Assembly (NCBI RefSeq): GCF_025460835.1
Contig: NZ_JAMXAY010000037.1
Span: 1-34,362 of the forward strand
DNA length: 34,362 nt
Direction: 5' to 3'
Origin: Parapedobacter soli
Lineage (GTDB): Bacteria; Bacteroidota; Bacteroidia; Sphingobacteriales; Sphingobacteriaceae
In this document: one piece after another, positions 28,469-34,362 of the stretch
Layout of the letters: each line of letters starts with the position of its first letter
How positions within the stretch are numbered: the first letter of the stretch is position 1
Position numbers and translations under genes: made by a program
The notes under the pieces: generated by a model
Told to the model about the DNA's origin: nothing
What the model saw: the letters and a program-made list of their open reading frames with translations, nothing else
Databases searched by the model: none

Positions 28469-29546
28469 ATGTCTCGGAAAATCGATGAAGATAAAGTTGA
28501 AGCCCAACCAGCAGAAGTCTGCCACACTTTTAATTCAGAATTAACTATCTTTGGCCATTCTACGAAAGGCGTGGGAGGCCAGACGGAAATGCCAAAAACC
28601 AGATTACGCGAAGACCAACACACAGAATTCAAAAGCTCGTTTACCGATGGGGTTATTGAGTCGCTGACGGCTTTTGCCAATAGCAGTGGCGGCAGGGTAC
28701 TGGTGGGTGTCGATGATAACGGCAAGCCTGTAAAAGGGTTTACGTTGGGTAGCGAGTCTTTGCAGAAGTGGGTAAATGAAATCAAGAACAAAACCCAACC
28801 CAGTATCATCCCGGATGTGGATGAAATAGACTTGGTCGGAACCAAAGTCGGCGTTCTATCGGTAAAGGAATTTCCGGTCAAACCCGTTGCCTTCAAAGGC
28901 CGGTATTACAAGCGGGTAAACAATGCCAACCACCAACTATCGTTGACAGAAATCGCCGACCTGTATCTCCGCTCTTTCAATACCAGTTGGGATAGCTATA
29001 TCAATCCGGATCGGGCACTCGATGACCTGTCACTGGATAAGGTCGTGAAGTTTATCGAAAAGAACAACCAGGGCAAGGAGACGCCGCTATATTGAGTTTT
29101 TCAATCCCGGCCATCTGCCGGATACGATTACGATCGAGCAATTGCTTACTGACGAGTATTCGTCGTACTCCCGTAACCGGAAAGTTGCCGCCACCTTTAA
29201 GGAGGCTCAATTGATAGAAAAGTACGGTTCTGGGATTCGTCGAATCCGGGAGGCGTTTGAACAGTACGGGCTGAAGGCACCGAAGTTTGAAAATTTCCAG
29301 CATGGATTCCGTGTTATAGTGTATGCTGAAAGATTAGCCGACGCAGGGAAAACGTCGGGGAAAACGTCGGGGAAAATTATAGCGTATATTCACGATAATC
29401 CTGATATAACGATACCTGAACTTGCGCGACTACTGGGAATTACTGAACGTTCGGTAGAGCGCAATATCAGCCAATTGCAAAAGCACAAAAAATTACGTCG
29501 TATCGGGCCTGCCAACGGCGGCCATTGGGAAGTAATCGGCAACTAA
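28469..29546 (+). pseudogene. AlbA_2 / RecG-like ATP-binding transcriptional regulator, middle deleted
   Basis: The first frame (28469-29095; the conserved part starts at ATG 28589, MPKTRLREDQHTEFK) encodes the AlbA_2/Schlafen-like N-terminal domain up to FIEKNNQGKETPLY and then stops. From 29091 another frame continues with the family's C-terminal half: IEFFNPGHLPDTITIEQLL, DEYSSYSRNRK, LIEKYGSGIRRI, then a KTSGKTSGK linker and a winged-helix domain (IPELARLLGITERSVERNIS). Intact relatives carry an HATPase-like central domain of ~130-160 residues between these points, which is absent here. A deletion plus frame change therefore inactivated the gene. A C-terminal polypeptide starting near 29142 could still be made. 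Confidence 0.8.
29352..29375 (+). repeat. Two 12-bp tandem copies encoding KTSG KTSG
   Basis: ACGTCGGGGAAA occurs twice head to tail inside the linker before the winged-helix domain of the broken regulator. The unit is a multiple of three, so copy change keeps frame. Relatives of this family often show similar short linker repeats (from memory). Confidence 0.8.
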
Positions 29547-29566
29547 GTTTCTACTCACTACCGCAG

Positions 29567-29737
29567 CTAATTTTCGGGGAGATTACAACCGGACTTTATC
29601 TTTTGTAAATCAGTCATGAGTTTTGTCTTAAATGAGTCATCAGGAAGTTTATTCAACAGATCAATCATCTTATCAATTATGGGGTTTCTATCCTCGGCGG
29701 CTTTCTTGTTTTCTACAGCATGACTAAAGAAGTTCAA
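29567..29737 (-). CDS. Small helical protein translationally coupled to hicB, 56 aa
   Basis: The frame opens with TTG at 29737, overlapping the hicB stop as TTGA (29737-29734). It runs to TAG at 29567. The product is charged and likely all-helical (HAVENKKAAEDRNPIIDKMI, DLLNKLPDDSFKTKLMTDLQ, KIKSGCNLPEN) with no motif I know. Support comes from the tight stop/start overlap, the absence of stops over 56 codons in AT-rich DNA, and protein-like composition. The start codon is weak (TTG), and the alternative is that this is the remnant end of another antitoxin. If real, the locus is a three-gene hicA-hicB-X operon. Confidence 0.55.
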   Translation of the reverse strand: MNFFSHAVENKKAAEDRNPIIDKMIDLLNKLPDDSFKTKLMTDLQKIKSGCNLPEN

Positions 29738-30135
29738 ACCAACTCCACCGACTGTAATTCAGCCGCCAGTTTATGAAGGCCATTTTCGATTTTTCTCAGC
29801 TGGGGCTGTCGAGGCTTTTTTAGACCAGTAGAATAATGCTGTAACTGTCGCTGGTTAATTCCTGTTATTTTTTCCAAGGCCGCATTGGTAAATATACCTT
29901 TGTAATAATTCAAGAAACTTTCGGCATCGAAATGATAAATGATACCGTAATCCCCTTTAAGAAGCGAGGGAATATTATCTGGGGTATTATATTCTTTTAA
30001 TAATGCGATGCTATCCAATATGGATTGTTTTGCTTCCTCCACAGTACCCCCACCACCGTAAATACCTGGAACATTCTCTGCATAAGCACTGAACATATCA
30101 GTACTCCGCTCAATGATAATTTTCAGTGTTTTCAT
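29734..30135 (-). CDS. hicB: HicB-type antitoxin, 133 aa
   Basis: Residues 1-70 form the degenerate RNase H-like HicB fold (KIIIERSTDMFSAYAENVPG, IYGGGGTVEEAKQSILDSIA). The C-terminal ~55 residues form a helix-turn-helix (FTNAALEKITGINQRQLQHY STGLKKPRQPQLRKIENGLH). HicB neutralises HicA by blocking its active site and represses the operon through the DNA-binding domain. It follows hicA by 40 bases, the usual toxin-first order of hicAB loci. Confidence 0.9.
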   Translation of the reverse strand: MKTLKIIIERSTDMFSAYAENVPGIYGGGGTVEEAKQSILDSIALLKEYNTPDNIPSLLKGDYGIIYHFDAESFLNYYKGIFTNAALEKITGINQRQLQHYSTGLKKPRQPQLRKIENGLHKLAAELQSVELV

Positions 30136-30175
30136 AATATAAAAATGCGACGTGCGACAAATAAGAATTTGGGGA

Positions 30176-30355
30176 TTATTTCAGCCCCAAATCCTTGATG
30201 ATTTTTCTACGGAGACCTTCTCCCATTTCCTTGTTACCATGATACGGAACGGGATAAGTCCTCCCATCCTTTTCATAAATGTAATGACTACCACTGGTAC
30301 GGATATGAATCCAGCCATTCTTCCGCAGAAACCGATGGAACTCGCTCGATTTCAT
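30176..30355 (-). CDS. hicA: HicA-type mRNA interferase toxin, 59 aa
   Basis: Reading the minus strand from ATG 30355 to TAA 30176 gives a complete HicA: MKSSEFHRFLRKNGWIHIRT, then SGSHYIYEKDGRTYPVPYHG, then NKEMGEGLRRKIIKDLGLK. This is the double-stranded RNA-binding-like fold with the catalytic histidine (His24 in SGSHYIY) and the conserved (P/V)PYHG(N/S)KE motif. HicA cleaves mRNA and halts growth. It is short enough to escape ordinary length cut-offs. It is intact, 40 bases upstream of hicB, and preceded by a strong promoter at 30434-30464. Confidence 0.93.
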   Translation of the reverse strand: MKSSEFHRFLRKNGWIHIRTSGSHYIYEKDGRTYPVPYHGNKEMGEGLRRKIIKDLGLK

Positions 30356-30433
30356 AAGGAACCAATTTTAGTGTGAACGATTATTTTAAGCCGTAAATAA
30401 TAGACCTCACACCTACAGAGTCCATCAACGACA

Positions 30434-30464
30434 CAAAGGTAGTAATAATACTACTATTAAGCAA
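30434..30464 (-). promoter_or_regulatory. hicAB promoter (TTG-N20-TACCTTTG)
   Basis: On the minus strand TTG (30464-30462) and TACCTTTG (30441-30434) are spaced by exactly 20 bases, a full Bacteroidota consensus. Transcription would start near 30428, giving a leader of ~73 bases before hicA. Confidence 0.8.
30440..30456. promoter_or_regulatory. Candidate HicB operator between the -33 and -7 elements
   Basis: TAGTA (30440-30444) and TACTA (30452-30456) form an inverted repeat with a 7-base AT spacer, lying inside the promoter spacer and touching the -7 box. HicB antitoxins with HTH domains repress by binding inverted repeats at this position. The arms are short, so this is tentative. Confidence 0.4.
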
Positions 30465-30778
30465 GTGCATATTCCGAGGAAAGTGTGGCAGTCGCCGTTA
30501 TCCATAGGTCATTCTTCCCCATACACTGCGTAATGCTCTTTGATGTGTTTTCACGGAGGAAGGGAATGGAGAAAAAAGAAAGCGCCTCAACTATATGGGA
30601 AGTGCCTACTGCACTTCGGGCAATAAAATAAACAGATTGATACGTTTACATGCTTTAATCTCGCAGTTTCTGATGGTTTTGAAATTATGGATGTTGACGT
30701 ATTTGATAAAATTACACATACTGGTCGGTTAAAGCTAATTGGCTAATGAATTATCGGACACAGTTCGGCTAAAATTTT
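30465..30778. other. Intergenic stretch without a supported gene
   Basis: Between the hicAB promoter and the Rpn gene I see no coding sequence with family features. A perfect 6-bp stem with a CTACT loop (AAGTGC/GCACTT) lies at 30600-30616. A 21-codon ORF from 30566 follows a GGAGG-like sequence, but nothing else supports it. Confidence 0.4.
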
Positions 30779-30786
30779 TATCTTTG
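30779..30786 (+). promoter_or_regulatory. -7 element TATCTTTG at the Rpn gene start
   Basis: An exact TAnnTTTG match ends three bases before the ATG at 30790, so the original transcript would have begun at or just after the start codon (leaderless). No TTG is seen at the -33 position. Confidence 0.55.
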
Positions 30787-30789
30787 CGT

Positions 30790-31495
30790 ATGACCAATGC
30801 AAAAGAACCTAAAATAGGGAAATTTATAGACCCTTTAACCGACTGGGGCTTCCGCCATCTTTTCGGGTAGGAGCCCAACAAGGAGATTTTAAAAGAGTTC
30901 TTAAACGACCTCTTCCGGGGGGAGAAGCACATTGCAGAACTCGAATATGCACCCAATGAGCACGATGGCGATGACGGTGAGGATAAGCGCGTTGTTTTCG
31001 ACCTGCATTGCCGTGGCGACAATGGCGAATATTTCATCGTCGAGATGCAGCGGGTCCGGCAGGACTTCTTCAAGGATAGGGCACTTTATTATGTATCGCG
31101 GCTCATCCAACGGTTGCTGAAAAAGGGCAAGGCGTCCAATGACTATCAATTGCCGGAAGTTTATCTGATTGGCATTCTAGAATTCAGTATGGATGCGGAC
31201 GAACAGGACCGTTACTTCCACGATATAGCCTTGATGGAAAAGACGTCGGGAGAAGTTTTTTACAATAAGTTGGGTTTTAAGTTATTGGAACCCCGAAGGG
31301 CTCTATCAGGCCAAAATGAACTTATTGTCAACTGATAAATTACCTAATTTTGTAAAGGAAGAAGGTGATTTGCTGACAGATACAGACAAATGGATGTATC
31401 TGTTGAAGCATATGAGTACGCTGGATAAGGTTCCAACATTTTTGGATAAGCGGATTTTTCAGCTTATCTTTAACATATCGGAAGTAGCAAACTAA
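30790..31495 (+). pseudogene. Rpn-family recombination-promoting nuclease/transposase-like gene, broken
   Basis: This is a PD-(D/E)XK nuclease-family 'transposase' (Rpn/PF12784 type). The start KIGKFIDPLTDWGFRHLFG is typical. A TAG at 30868-30870 then interrupts what is normally LFGxEPNKEIL, probably a C-to-T change of a Gln codon. The frame continues with the catalytic core (VVFDLHCRGDNGEYFIVEMQ, RVRQDFFKDRALYYVSRLI; Asp and E-x-Q of the nuclease motif are present) to KLGFKLLE. It then shifts frame near 31280-31330; the next frame carries LPNFVKEEGDLLTDTDKWMY and KRIFQLIFNISEVAN and stops at 31493. A further C-terminal part lies downstream as a separate ORF. With a stop, a frameshift and an insertion, the nuclease is not expressed as one chain. 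Confidence 0.85.
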
Positions 31496-32388: not shown

Positions 32389-33276
32389 TTAGCTGTAATC
32401 AGTCAACTTGGAAATCTTGCCGGTTGGCGAAAACTCAAAAACGGACCTGCCTGTTAGTTGTATCTTATCGCCCTCTTTAATGCCATCCGGTAAATCCACC
32501 CCCACTATTGCTTCATAGGCAACGGTGATTTCCGTAGCATTGGGTTTGTGAGTTAGGGATAGGATTCTTTGTCGCCGCTCAGTAAAATAGGTAAGTGCGT
32601 CAATAGCTTGCTTCCTAAACTCATCGATCCCTTCCAAATGCAAGGTTACTAGGTTGTTTTCGCAATTATCAAAAACTACCGCATCAGCCATGTGAGCCAA
32701 CATACCGGGTACATCCTGTTCGTTGTAAGCTTTTACGTATTGGTAGATTATTGTAGCCCTTTCATTTAAAATGTCAAGGCTTGGAAGCATTTCGTCTTCA
32801 CCGATTGGCCCGTATATTTCTTTGAAGGTAGTTAGTAAATCATATCCCATCCCTTCAATAAAGCAGATCATTTCGATCGCTATTATACGTTTTTTATGGT
32901 CACCAAAATATTTGCTAAGCTTATTTTCGGGCATTTCAAGCTTTTTCTCCAAGCCGGCCTGCTGCTGAGCATGCTTCTTGAAAAATAATGATTCTGGGGA
33001 ATAGTCTTTAAACTCCTCTAATAAATTTGTTTTACTTCTATTTGGGAAAATCTCATCTACAGCGGTTACGAAAGCTTGGTCTGTAAGGCCTGCTTGTTTG
33101 TTTGCCACCATAACGATTTTGTAGAAATCTTCGGCATAAATTGTTCTACTACTGTCCGTCGCAAGCAAAGAAATGGTCTTTGGTTTTATGCTGATCATCG
33201 GAGCAATCTTAGAAGGACGTGCCCCTATCTTTTTTAAATACCTACCAAAACGTGTTAATTTTTTATTTTCTTCCAT
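32389..33276 (-). CDS. Fusion of two HTH-like repeats with an NTF2/SnoaL-like domain, 295 aa
   Basis: Residues ~7-75 (FGRYLKKIGARPSKIAPMIS, IKPKTISLLATDSSRTIYAE) look like an XRE-type helix-turn-helix with an extra helical tail (VTAVDEIFP). Residues ~92-153 repeat the same layout (FFKKHAQQQAGLEKKLEMPE, NKLSKYFGDHKKRIIAIEMI, LTTFKEIYGP). From ~168 on is an NTF2/SnoaL-like fold (YQYVKAYNEQDVPGMLAHMA, DAVVFDNCENNL, VFEFSPTGKISKLTDYS), typical of small-molecule-binding or dimerising domains. I know no named family with this order. A ligand-responsive regulator is a fair inference. A 12-bp palindrome lies 17 bases before its start codon. The gene is intact, although flanked by debris. Confidence 0.7.
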   Translation of the reverse strand: MEENKKLTRFGRYLKKIGARPSKIAPMISIKPKTISLLATDSSRTIYAEDFYKIVMVANKQAGLTDQAFVTAVDEIFPNRSKTNLLEEFKDYSPESLFFKKHAQQQAGLEKKLEMPENKLSKYFGDHKKRIIAIEMICFIEGMGYDLLTTFKEIYGPIGEDEMLPSLDILNERATIIYQYVKAYNEQDVPGMLAHMADAVVFDNCENNLVTLHLEGIDEFRKQAIDALTYFTERRQRILSLTHKPNATEITVAYEAIVGVDLPDGIKEGDKIQLTGRSVFEFSPTGKISKLTDYS

Positions 33277-33292
33277 TTTTGGTTAAAATATT

Positions 33293-33304
33293 TCCATATA
33301 TGGA
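33293..33304. promoter_or_regulatory. 12-bp palindrome TCCATATATGGA upstream of the HTH-NTF2 gene
   Basis: A perfect palindrome 17 bases upstream of the minus-strand ATG at 33276. It is placed where the -33 region of the plus-strand -7 element at 33315-33322 would fall, so one bound protein could control both directions. It is a candidate autoregulatory operator. Confidence 0.5.
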
Positions 33305-33314
33305 TTATTTGTTT

Positions 33315-33322
33315 TATATTTG
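33315..33322 (+). promoter_or_regulatory. -7 element TATATTTG, plus strand
   Basis: An exact TAnnTTTG match whose predicted start is near 33328, divergent from the HTH-NTF2 gene. It is not followed by a convincing ORF; the longest nearby is 16 codons. The -33 region coincides with the palindrome at 33293-33304. Confidence 0.45.
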
Positions 33323-33442
33323 TCTCGTTGATATGCGAAATTGAATGAGGGAAGTACTCTCATTTACGATGTCACTCATGCAAGAAAACCGCTAATTTTC
33401 CCCATGAGCAGACCGTGAGCTCGCCCATTTATTGAATAATGC

Positions 33443-33450
33443 TATTTTTG
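33443..33450 (+). promoter_or_regulatory. -7 element TATTTTTG just before the structured RNA
   Basis: An exact TAnnTTTG match. The predicted transcription start (~33455-33458) falls a few bases before the outer stem of the nested hairpin at 33464-33560, as expected for a dedicated RNA gene promoter. No -33 TTG is at 19-21 bases. Confidence 0.5.
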
Positions 33451-33456
33451 CAATAT

Positions 33457-33560
33457 CATATTCAGTAGGGTGAGCTTCATGTAATCCTTTGGGGGAACCA
33501 AGCTTCGGCTTGGCGGTTCTTAGCGGTACCACTTGCCAAAGCATTGAGGCTCACCCTATT
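33457..33560 (+). ncRNA. Candidate structured RNA with nested stems and a UUCG tetraloop
   Basis: An outer stem pairs 33464-33475 with 33549-33560 (12 bp, core TAGGGTGAGC/GCTCACCCTA, one G-U). An inner stem pairs 33487-33492 with 33536-33541 (CTTTGG/CCAAAG). An apical hairpin CCAAGC-UUCG-GCUUGG lies at 33498-33513, extended by GAA/UUC (33495-33497 with 33517-33519). A single-stranded stretch with UAGCGGUACC (33521-33530) is left on the 3' side. A -7 promoter element lies immediately upstream. It has no ORF and does not match tRNA, SRP RNA, RNase P, tmRNA or any riboswitch consensus I know. The opposite strand folds equally well, so strand rests on the promoter. An extruding DNA element is the alternative. 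Confidence 0.5.
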
Positions 33561-33655
33561 GGTTTATTCCAGTTCGGTTTTCTCATAGCTTATTGAGTTG
33601 ATATCGTTTACATAACCGAAAAGATTATGGAAACGACATCTGCCAAACCGCCAAA

Positions 33656-33714
33656 GTACCCGTATCGCAAGCCACTTGCGTATGATATCGCAATTTGCGA
33701 CACTAAATGGGTAC
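33656..33714. repeat. Branched inverted-repeat structure (one closing stem, two hairpins)
   Basis: GTACCC (33656-33661) pairs with GGGTAC (33709-33714) and encloses two hairpins: CGCAAG-CCA-CTTGCG (33666-33680) and TCGC-AATTT-GCGA, extendable by an A-T pair (33688-33700). Both hairpins begin with TATCGCAA. The fold is a three-way junction. It lies ~95 bases after the structured RNA candidate. Confidence 0.5.
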
Positions 33715-34066
33715 AGCCCCAATCCCTACAATCACTTTTAAAGAACGTAAAAAGAGGCCCTGTGTAGGTCCACCGAAAAATAACGCAGTCGTAGGAAGCG
33801 CGTAGGAGGGAGGTACATTAAAAAGGCCTACCCCCAAAAGCACGGCCATAAAAAAGCCCACTTCCTTGGTTGCTACCGACCCCAATGCTGATAGAAAAAC
33901 CCGCTTTTAGATCAGGTTGGAGAAGGTGTCCATTTTCGGCAATAATTCGCAATGCTAAAAGTAGGCGCTTTTTCTTATACCTGCAAATAAAATAGCGGAA
34001 AAACTCAGCATTGGTGCGTCGGTTCTAGGAATAAATTTTTCTTAAACCGTTAAAAGCCAATGCACA

Positions 34067-34362
34067 ATGAAGAGAACTTTACGCTTAGGGGATGGCTATG
34101 CCCTAGCCAAACATAAGCCGAAATGCCTAAAAATACGATACATCAGCCTCCTGGCTGTATCAATGAGCATGTGTTTGTATGCCGTGAAGCAGGTCTCCGC
34201 CCAACAGGCGGAGCCTGCGGCTACGGCAGTTGCAGACGTTATCGGCTCCAATGCCAAATCTCAATACGGCATGCTTGGTGTGCACGAAGTACGTGGAAAG
34301 CTATACCTCGAAATCCCAGATTCGCTCCTTGGCCGCGATATCCTTGCGGTAAACCGTATTGC
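34067..34362 (+). CDS. N-terminus of a zinc-dependent metalloprotease (DUF5117/DUF5118 type), truncated by the window edge
   Basis: Ninety-eight codons are visible. A basic N-terminus and a hydrophobic helix (~24-48, YISLLAVSMSMCLYAV, ending QVSAQ) form an unusually long signal peptide. The mature segment KSQYGMLGVHEVRGKLYLEI and PDSLLGRDILAVNRI is the conserved opening of the large (~800-aa) secreted zinc metalloproteases with DUF5117, DUF5118 and DUF4953 domains in Bacteroidota. There the phrase is 'GMF.VHK..D.YY.EIPDSLLGR.ILVVNRIS'. The catalytic HExxH region lies beyond the window. No promoter is clear in the bases just upstream. Confidence 0.8.
   Translation, partial: MKRTLRLGDGYALAKHKPKCLKIRYISLLAVSMSMCLYAVKQVSAQQAEPAATAVADVIGSNAKSQYGMLGVHEVRGKLYLEIPDSLLGRDILAVNRI

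Follow-up and report, generated by a model that had tools for sequence, protein, structure and literature searches.

A probable conserved leader RNA with two mutually exclusive folds near SusCD-type importer genes in Sphingobacteriaceae

The locus, its relatives and their gene neighbourhoods

The window, that is, the whole stretch of 34,362 nucleotides from Parapedobacter soli that was analysed, has near its right end a probable leader of about 740 nt, reaching from an upstream promoter (P_up) to a first downstream gene at 34067. To the left lies a divergent gene of 295 aa (32389-33276, minus strand) with a SnoaL-like C-terminal domain (SnoaL_2, E 3e-07). The first-pass annotation had mentioned a regulator with a palindromic operator next to the RNA; there is indeed a gene start at 33276 and close by a palindrome, CCATATATGG (33294-33303, an exact match), which falls between the gene start and P_up and is a candidate operator. 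All remaining features are on the plus strand. P_up has the -7 box TATATTTG (33315-33322), and the box that the same annotation had taken for its promoter, TATTTTTG, lies at 33443-33450 and is here called P_int. Further downstream come a 46-aa leader peptide ORF ending in KNVKRGPV-stop (33627-33767), a second structured domain seen by folding, D2, closed by a helix of the ACCGACC/GGTCGGT type (33875-34024), and the first downstream gene (34067-34362, continuing past the window), a met-zincin protease by its domain matches (DUF4953/DUF5117/DUF5118), with genes for a thioredoxin-like protein, SusC and SusD continuing the row outside the window. This locus (L039) has a tandem repeat of 133 bases, at 99% identity, in its first downstream gene (window 34230-34362 and contig C109:34359-34491), whose protein has two DUF5118 stretches; the tandem repeat may be biological or an assembly effect.

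By blastn, the RNA is present in 57 of the 399 genomes of the window's family. A structure drawn up on 30 places of that result has 97.8% of its cells paired, and 14 of its 36 pairs are changed on both sides, a level reached by none of 500 shuffles, so the earlier assertion that the pairing exceeds chance holds. From these 30 places we built a covariance model, R1. The check that the first-pass annotation had proposed, a custom-model search of the family, gave matches in 119 of the 399 genomes (nine of 25 genera, one to five matches per genome), and the homologues show compensatory changes. When R1 was run on 395 genomes from across the phylum (E 0.1), two matched, namely the window's own genome and one more of the same family. 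A scan of named genomes with a 16-base pattern found at least 80 loci, with many chance matches that leave it silent on spread; among the matches listed, R1 confirmed 14, of which 13 are from Pedobacter, Parapedobacter or Sphingobacterium, and one is from a metagenome bin labelled Flavobacterium sp. The species of the three named genera that were looked up belong to Sphingobacteriaceae and, given the genera of these 13 loci, the RNA family is very likely one of Sphingobacteriaceae, with the Flavobacterium sp. bin as one possible exception.

Over the window, Rfam (release 15) had no match at gathering cut-offs, and with E up to 10 the best was mir-3923 (21.9 bits, cut-off 94); 20 related 3-kb loci searched with E up to 1 gave two matches, of 25.8 and 24.4 bits against cut-offs of 80 and 50. 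Pedo-repair RNA (RF01715) is listed as a structured RNA candidate for Pedobacter in Table 1 of PMC2864571. Its covariance model matched none of six genomes, but also none of 14 controls, so that this negative is a weak one. The reported 141 bases have one copy in their own genome, 16 further matches being at chance level, and a search of plasmids, from which records near the window may have been left out, gave no match. Searches of an open-access literature library turned up no description of this RNA or of SusCD leaders in Sphingobacteriaceae.

For comparison we studied 80 loci (20 plus 60, picked from the blastn and R1 places, mostly high-scoring with some divergent ones), most of them read with 9 kb on each side; since they were chosen by hand, fractions of 80 should not be read as fractions of all carriers. 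Two of them, L114 and L121, have lost the left arm described below together with P_up, and were excluded from the alignment, A6, which thus comprises 78 loci. In one genus (g13, 24 loci), conservation spans about -165 to +505 around the hairpin.

A divergent ORF of at least 60 aa starts 140-300 nt upstream at 75 of the 80 loci, a count that comes without a chance control. The 75 proteins are diverse (mean column identity 13%), with matches to HTH_3 in 38, to HTH_26 in 30 (the two sets overlap) and to SnoaL_2 in three. The window's divergent protein matched no HTH family up to E 0.1 and is a putative regulator, by position; since its only match was to SnoaL_2, we infer a repressor role for it from its relatives. 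To the left of the divergent gene, 28469-31335 is an accessory region that encodes a protein of Schlafen/AlbA type, a fragment of a PDDEXK transposase and a HicA toxin, next to which a HicB partner may be recognised by eye. Genes that look defence- or mobile-like by eye also lie left of some of the other loci.

On the right flank, within the fetched region and on the plus strand, SusC was found at 71 of the 80 loci, SusD at 70 and a thioredoxin-like (TlpA) gene at 71, and SusC stands on the left in at most five. Of the nine loci with no SusC on the right, one owes this to a contig end. Gene clusters were named from representatives: SusC/RagA (TIGR04056), SusD, thioredoxin-like, MauE, cNMP-binding and met-zincin protease. 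After SusD we also observed MauE (28/80) and a cNMP-binding protein (26/80), as well as convergent small proteins (for example in L103, L121, L106 and L122) that form two clusters, in 23 and 17 of the 80 loci; DUF6520 matched one of these weakly (E 0.0018, under cut-off) and the other not at all. L044 and L056 are related sites, without importer genes on the right and with similar outer neighbours, at which the gene sets beside the RNA (+400 to +5700 from it) differ, being SIR2/HerA-like and ATPase/AbiH-like by eye. A D2-like domain, about 150 nt long, precedes the first gene in L045, L049, L122, L125-L127, L130, L133, L138, L140 and L151, and in relatives its closing helix varies on both sides, by eye; D2 may be a regulatory RNA in its own right.

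Downstream of the RNA, an ORF ending in K[NK][VIL]xxxPx-stop occurs at 61 of the 80 loci, as against five of 1600 shuffles and none of 80 reverse complements, and several of the loci that miss the strict motif carry near forms. This short, presumably translated ORF keeps its conserved residues at a constant spacing from the stop codon, as looked for in a leader-peptide attenuator. In the 61 peptides the proline codon is found with all four third bases, the stop codon takes three forms, the asparagine codon is always AAC, and pN/pS over the last 12 codons is 0.47; the peptides were picked by a motif that was itself written after the sequences had been seen, and this choice by itself makes the K and P columns invariant. 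NCBIfam gave no match for the six leader peptides tested. The stop-linked motif suggests an arrest or termination-stall peptide, with stalling as its presumed property.

The window's own genome has six loci of this layout, its own included. By sequence, their first genes encode proteases, thioredoxin-like proteins or a SusC, yet all six begin with the same signal-peptide stretch; in L039 and L162-L166 the shared N-terminal start reads MKxxLRxGxGYALSKHK...SAQxAEPAATAVAD, as if the 5' region may move between cassettes or be homogenised. Each of the other five has two -7 boxes, the peptide motif and a divergent gene that looks HTH-like by eye, as well as an RNA of different sequence that R1 does not report. 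Taken singly, the arm complementarity of the six leaders was matched by 18, 16, 17, 27, 1 and 5 of 100 shuffles (the last being the window's), and as it is mostly not significant at a single locus, the membership of these paralogues rests on layout. Two of the six leaders are 92% identical in DNA over 386 bases, a possible sign of exchange between loci. We also considered an expression site with silent cassettes, a reading that found no support because the five paralogues carry their own divergent genes and -7 boxes.

The reported RNA and its alternative fold

The RNA that the first-pass annotation had described is genuine: it lies at 33461-33562, is encoded on the plus strand, is conserved and has no Rfam match. 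Its closing stem, inner stem and UUCG-capped hairpin (33498-33513) are all present, the region 33443-33570 folds with a z of -4.4, and the absence of coding potential is borne out in that the sole listed frame of at least 50 aa over the RNA is a 50-aa ORF on the minus strand. The minus strand of the region folds as well (z -5.1), so the fold by itself is silent on strand. As far as sequence goes, the reading as a promoter-driven structured RNA of a family new to Rfam is supported.

In other respects the earlier picture was too small. The unit given as 33443-33560 is part of a larger one, as 33366-33607 folds at a z of -8.1, and the picture of a stand-alone promoter with its RNA had overlooked the second promoter 128 bp upstream. 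A free transcript of about 100 nt is not borne out either, although processing might still yield one. At just 13 of the 80 loci did a simple scan find a terminator-like site in the stretch from the RNA to the first gene, and with so few such sites read-through is the simplest view. The RNA is more likely one alternative fold within the leader than a separate RNA of about 100 nt.

The other fold is formed with a left arm, 33366-33434, which is complementary to the right half over most of its length and follows a small hairpin, H0 (AATGAG...CTCATT, 33344-33364, seen by sequence and fold). In what we call state I, the right half closes on itself into the reported hairpin, P1 to P4 (33461-33562, the structure modelled by R1), and the left arm has its own hairpin, H1 (CTCATG/CATGAG, 33375-33408). 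In state II, a rod, the 5' strand of the main stem is paired with the left arm instead. From the outside inwards the rod consists of S0 (33366-33372 with 33601-33607), F (GCAAG at 33380-33384 with CTTGC at 33532-33536, a place read from sequence), A (ACCGCTAA at 33388-33395 with TTAGCGGT at 33520-33527), B (TTTTCCCC at 33396-33403 with 33491-33497) and C, D and E, whose left strands (33403-33434) match by complementarity the 5' strand of the stem seen in state I. P3, the UUCG-capped hairpin at 33498-33513, is common to both. The two states exclude each other because they share columns: C/D/E overlap with the 5' strand of P1, A with P4, C with H1, and F and B with P2.

Both folds can be read from covariation across the 78 loci. 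For state I (P1-P3), 95.0% of cells are paired and 28 of 32 pairs are changed on both sides, including all six pairs of P3, and for state II 94.8% of cells are paired and 24 of 40 pairs are changed on both sides; neither result was reached by any of 500 shuffles. P4 and H1 covary too, H1 with four of its six pairs changed on both sides and a place in the RNAalifold consensus. Within the rod, C/D/E have 95.0% of cells paired, with 33 cells changed on both sides against a shuffled mean of 9.3, and S0 has 434 Watson-Crick, 28 G-U and 35 other cells out of 497. Helix A is Watson-Crick in 620 of 623 lettered cells, in forms that include ACCGCTAA/TTAGCGGT, CCGTCAA/TTGACGG and ACGACCAA/TTGGTCGT. Helix F is the most variable (87.9% of cells paired, the outer pair failing in 25 of the 78 loci); its covariation score of 0.658, against 0.153 for the shuffled, was reached in none of 500 shuffles, and across 43 of the 78 loci it takes 12 different fully Watson-Crick five-base pairs, such as GAACG/CGTTC, GAGTG/CACTC, GCTAG/CTAGC, GGATG/CATCC and GCCAG/CTGGC. 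The segment UAGCGGUACC, thought to be conserved and single-stranded, is conserved as stated, but its single-stranded state is not confirmed: the UUAGCGGU within it is complementary to and paired with ACCGCUAA (33388-33395; 99.7% of cells, 78 loci), and in the other fold P4 is made by the flanks of the segment.

Over the same loci, G-U cells outnumber A-C cells by 163 to 6 in P1, 154 to 25 in C/D/E and 28 to 9 in S0, an excess which indicates that in these helices it is the plus-strand RNA that is under selection. Helix A (1 G-U, 2 A-C) and H1 (8:7) have no strand bias. We consider a leader architecture with two folds well supported by the aligned sequences. The program used for the computations below scores nested pairs only, so that its results do not bear on a possible loop-loop form of H1 with the hairpin, in which A and F would be present together with H1 and P1.

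Two candidate start sites and the computed choice of fold

Both promoters recur. For P_up, TAnnTTTG stands between -185 and -130 in 69 of the 80 loci, with 8.3 expected from shuffles. For P_int, TAnnTT[TCA]G stands in 74 (7.3 expected) and the exact consensus TAnnTTTG in 33 (4.1 expected), with no clear -33 element by eye. In many loci the P_int box lies within a dyad, which may be RNA structure, and in the five own-genome paralogues the box was read in different surrounding sequence. Upstream of P_up, inverted repeats with a perfect arm of at least 7 occur in 43% of 75 loci, against 16% of shuffled ones (the arm of the window's own palindrome is shorter than 7), and they differ from locus to locus, as expected of exchangeable regulators that each have their own operator.

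When the RNA from S0 to S0 was folded by computation, at least 60% of helix A formed in 77 of the 78 loci and at least 60% of P1 in one, with S0 formed in 70, F in 63 and E in 70. An RNA begun just after P_int formed P1 in 75 of the 78. With either A and E or P1 forced in the full RNA, the mean difference was -17.3 kcal/mol in favour of A and E, which came out lower in energy in 76 of the 78; L044 and L145 are the loci in which state II was not favoured. The RNAalifold consensus, on the other hand, chooses H1 and P1. It is from the folding of the full as against the P_int-begun RNA, together with the kept internal box, that we read the start site as the input. In L114 and L121, which lack the left arm and P_up, the internal box is gone, and by eye so is the complementarity of A; we read these losses as decay.

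A possible switch, its rivals and its relation to known systems

These observations can be brought together in a model, which we think has an even chance of being right, in which an importer operon of RagAB/SusCD type has in its leader RNA a bistable switch with the transcription start site as its input. P_up could be repressed by the protein that the divergent gene encodes, acting via its own operator. A transcript from P_up would contain the left arm, which would pair with the right half to give the rod (state II: S0, F, A, B, C, D, E), while one from P_int would have no left arm, so that the right half would close on itself into the hairpin (state I: P1-P4). Depending on the shape, the peptide ORF and the stretch of RNA that leads to the first gene may be exposed in different ways, and expression of TlpA, SusC and SusD could be set in this manner; ribosome stalling at termination, at the peptide C-terminus K-N-V/I-x-x-x-P-x-stop, would be a second input. 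Thus homology, two covarying and exclusive folds, two -7 boxes, an ORF motif and a neighbourhood are what was observed, and on them the firing of both promoters, repression by the divergent protein, a fold-dependent output and stalling on the peptide are presumed. More tentatively, and with the odds somewhat against it, the leader may stand for a class of RNA switch in which an exchangeable repressor sets the start site and thereby one of two maintained and mutually exclusive folds, the module, each time with a regulator, a pairing sequence and a leader peptide of its own, being present at several importer loci per genome within a single bacterial family.

Other readings of the same data have to be weighed. 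The short RNA from P_int might act in trans, loops F, A and B binding the left arm of the upstream transcript, so that the left arm would be the target and the state I hairpin the regulator, as in plasmid antisense RNAs. Helix A, with one G-U among 623 cells, is as free of G-U as one expects of a loop-loop seed, P_int is conserved, and sequences differ among the loci of one genome; yet the target transcript has the same right half in cis and would compete, sites resembling terminators, at which a short RNA might stop, are few (13/80), and in G214, G205 and G217 the same A sequence is found at two loci, which argues against strict locus specificity. We regard a trans-acting RNA as unlikely. Were P_up the sole promoter, the leader could be a kinetic attenuator within a single transcript, forming H1 and P1, or the loop-loop contact, before the rod, and responding to a ligand or to translation of the peptide. 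The covariation of H1 and P1, which bar single columns is compatible with loop-loop contact through A and F, would fit such an attenuator, as would a P_int box within a hairpin-like dyad in many loci, but the TAnnTT-type box is kept in the five own-genome paralogues, some of which have no dyad, and the scan of the 80 loci found no recurrent terminator; this is, in our opinion, quite unlikely.

Selection might also act on the DNA itself, as a cruciform or recombination site that reassorts units of regulator and leader with importer cassettes. In such a case one would expect first genes of different kinds with one signal-peptide start, as in the own genome, leader DNA as similar as the 92% over 386 bases seen at two loci, and helices without strand bias, such as A and H1. 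Nevertheless, the excess of G-U over A-C in P1, C/D/E and S0 and the codon conservation of the ORF indicate RNA, and the outer repeat arms are unequal, which makes a DNA site a very improbable explanation. The reading of the RNA as the terminus of a transposable element or MITE, an outcome that the first-pass annotation had itself named as speaking against its reading, we judge the remotest of all. It is true that the outer arms are inverted and that defence- or mobile-like genes were seen by eye to the left of some loci, but carrier genomes have one to five copies (the own genome has one) and the position between the divergent ORF and the importer operon is fixed.

Non-coding RNAs beside susC homologues are known from the same phylum: as described in PMC7366714, the DonS family of Bacteroides comprises cis-antisense RNAs of 78-128 nt divergent to susC homologues. 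While the DonS RNAs are antisense and divergent, the present RNA runs in the same sense as the operon, with SusC downstream of it at 71 of the 80 loci and the plus strand favoured by the G-U excess in P1, and we do not assign it to the DonS type. Leader-peptide attenuators of the trp and tna type combine a short ORF that has a conserved end with a structured leader and mutually exclusive folds. The present leader resembles them in all three, but here the simple scan found no recurrent terminator, the alternative folds lie upstream of the ORF, and the strand segments contained in the RNA would depend on the choice between two promoters. Riboswitches, too, have two mutually exclusive folds, conserved residues and a transport operon downstream. 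The leader shares these traits, but it matched no Rfam class and is not known to respond to a ligand. In the invertible promoters and SusCD shufflons of Bacteroides, inverted arms flank a promoter that precedes genes for surface proteins. Such an arrangement is found here as well; the arms are, however, unequal, and the 71 loci that have SusC on their right all face the importer genes in one orientation, so that we reject an invertible element or promoter.

SusCD/RagAB importers are a main route by which Bacteroidota take up large nutrients, and phages also exploit these surface proteins. If the switch model is correct, the module of regulator, two-fold leader and peptide would offer a testable answer to the question of how the many paralogous importer loci of one cell are switched singly. 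It would also provide a natural example of rare clarity, with both of the alternative structures of one RNA legible from covariation.
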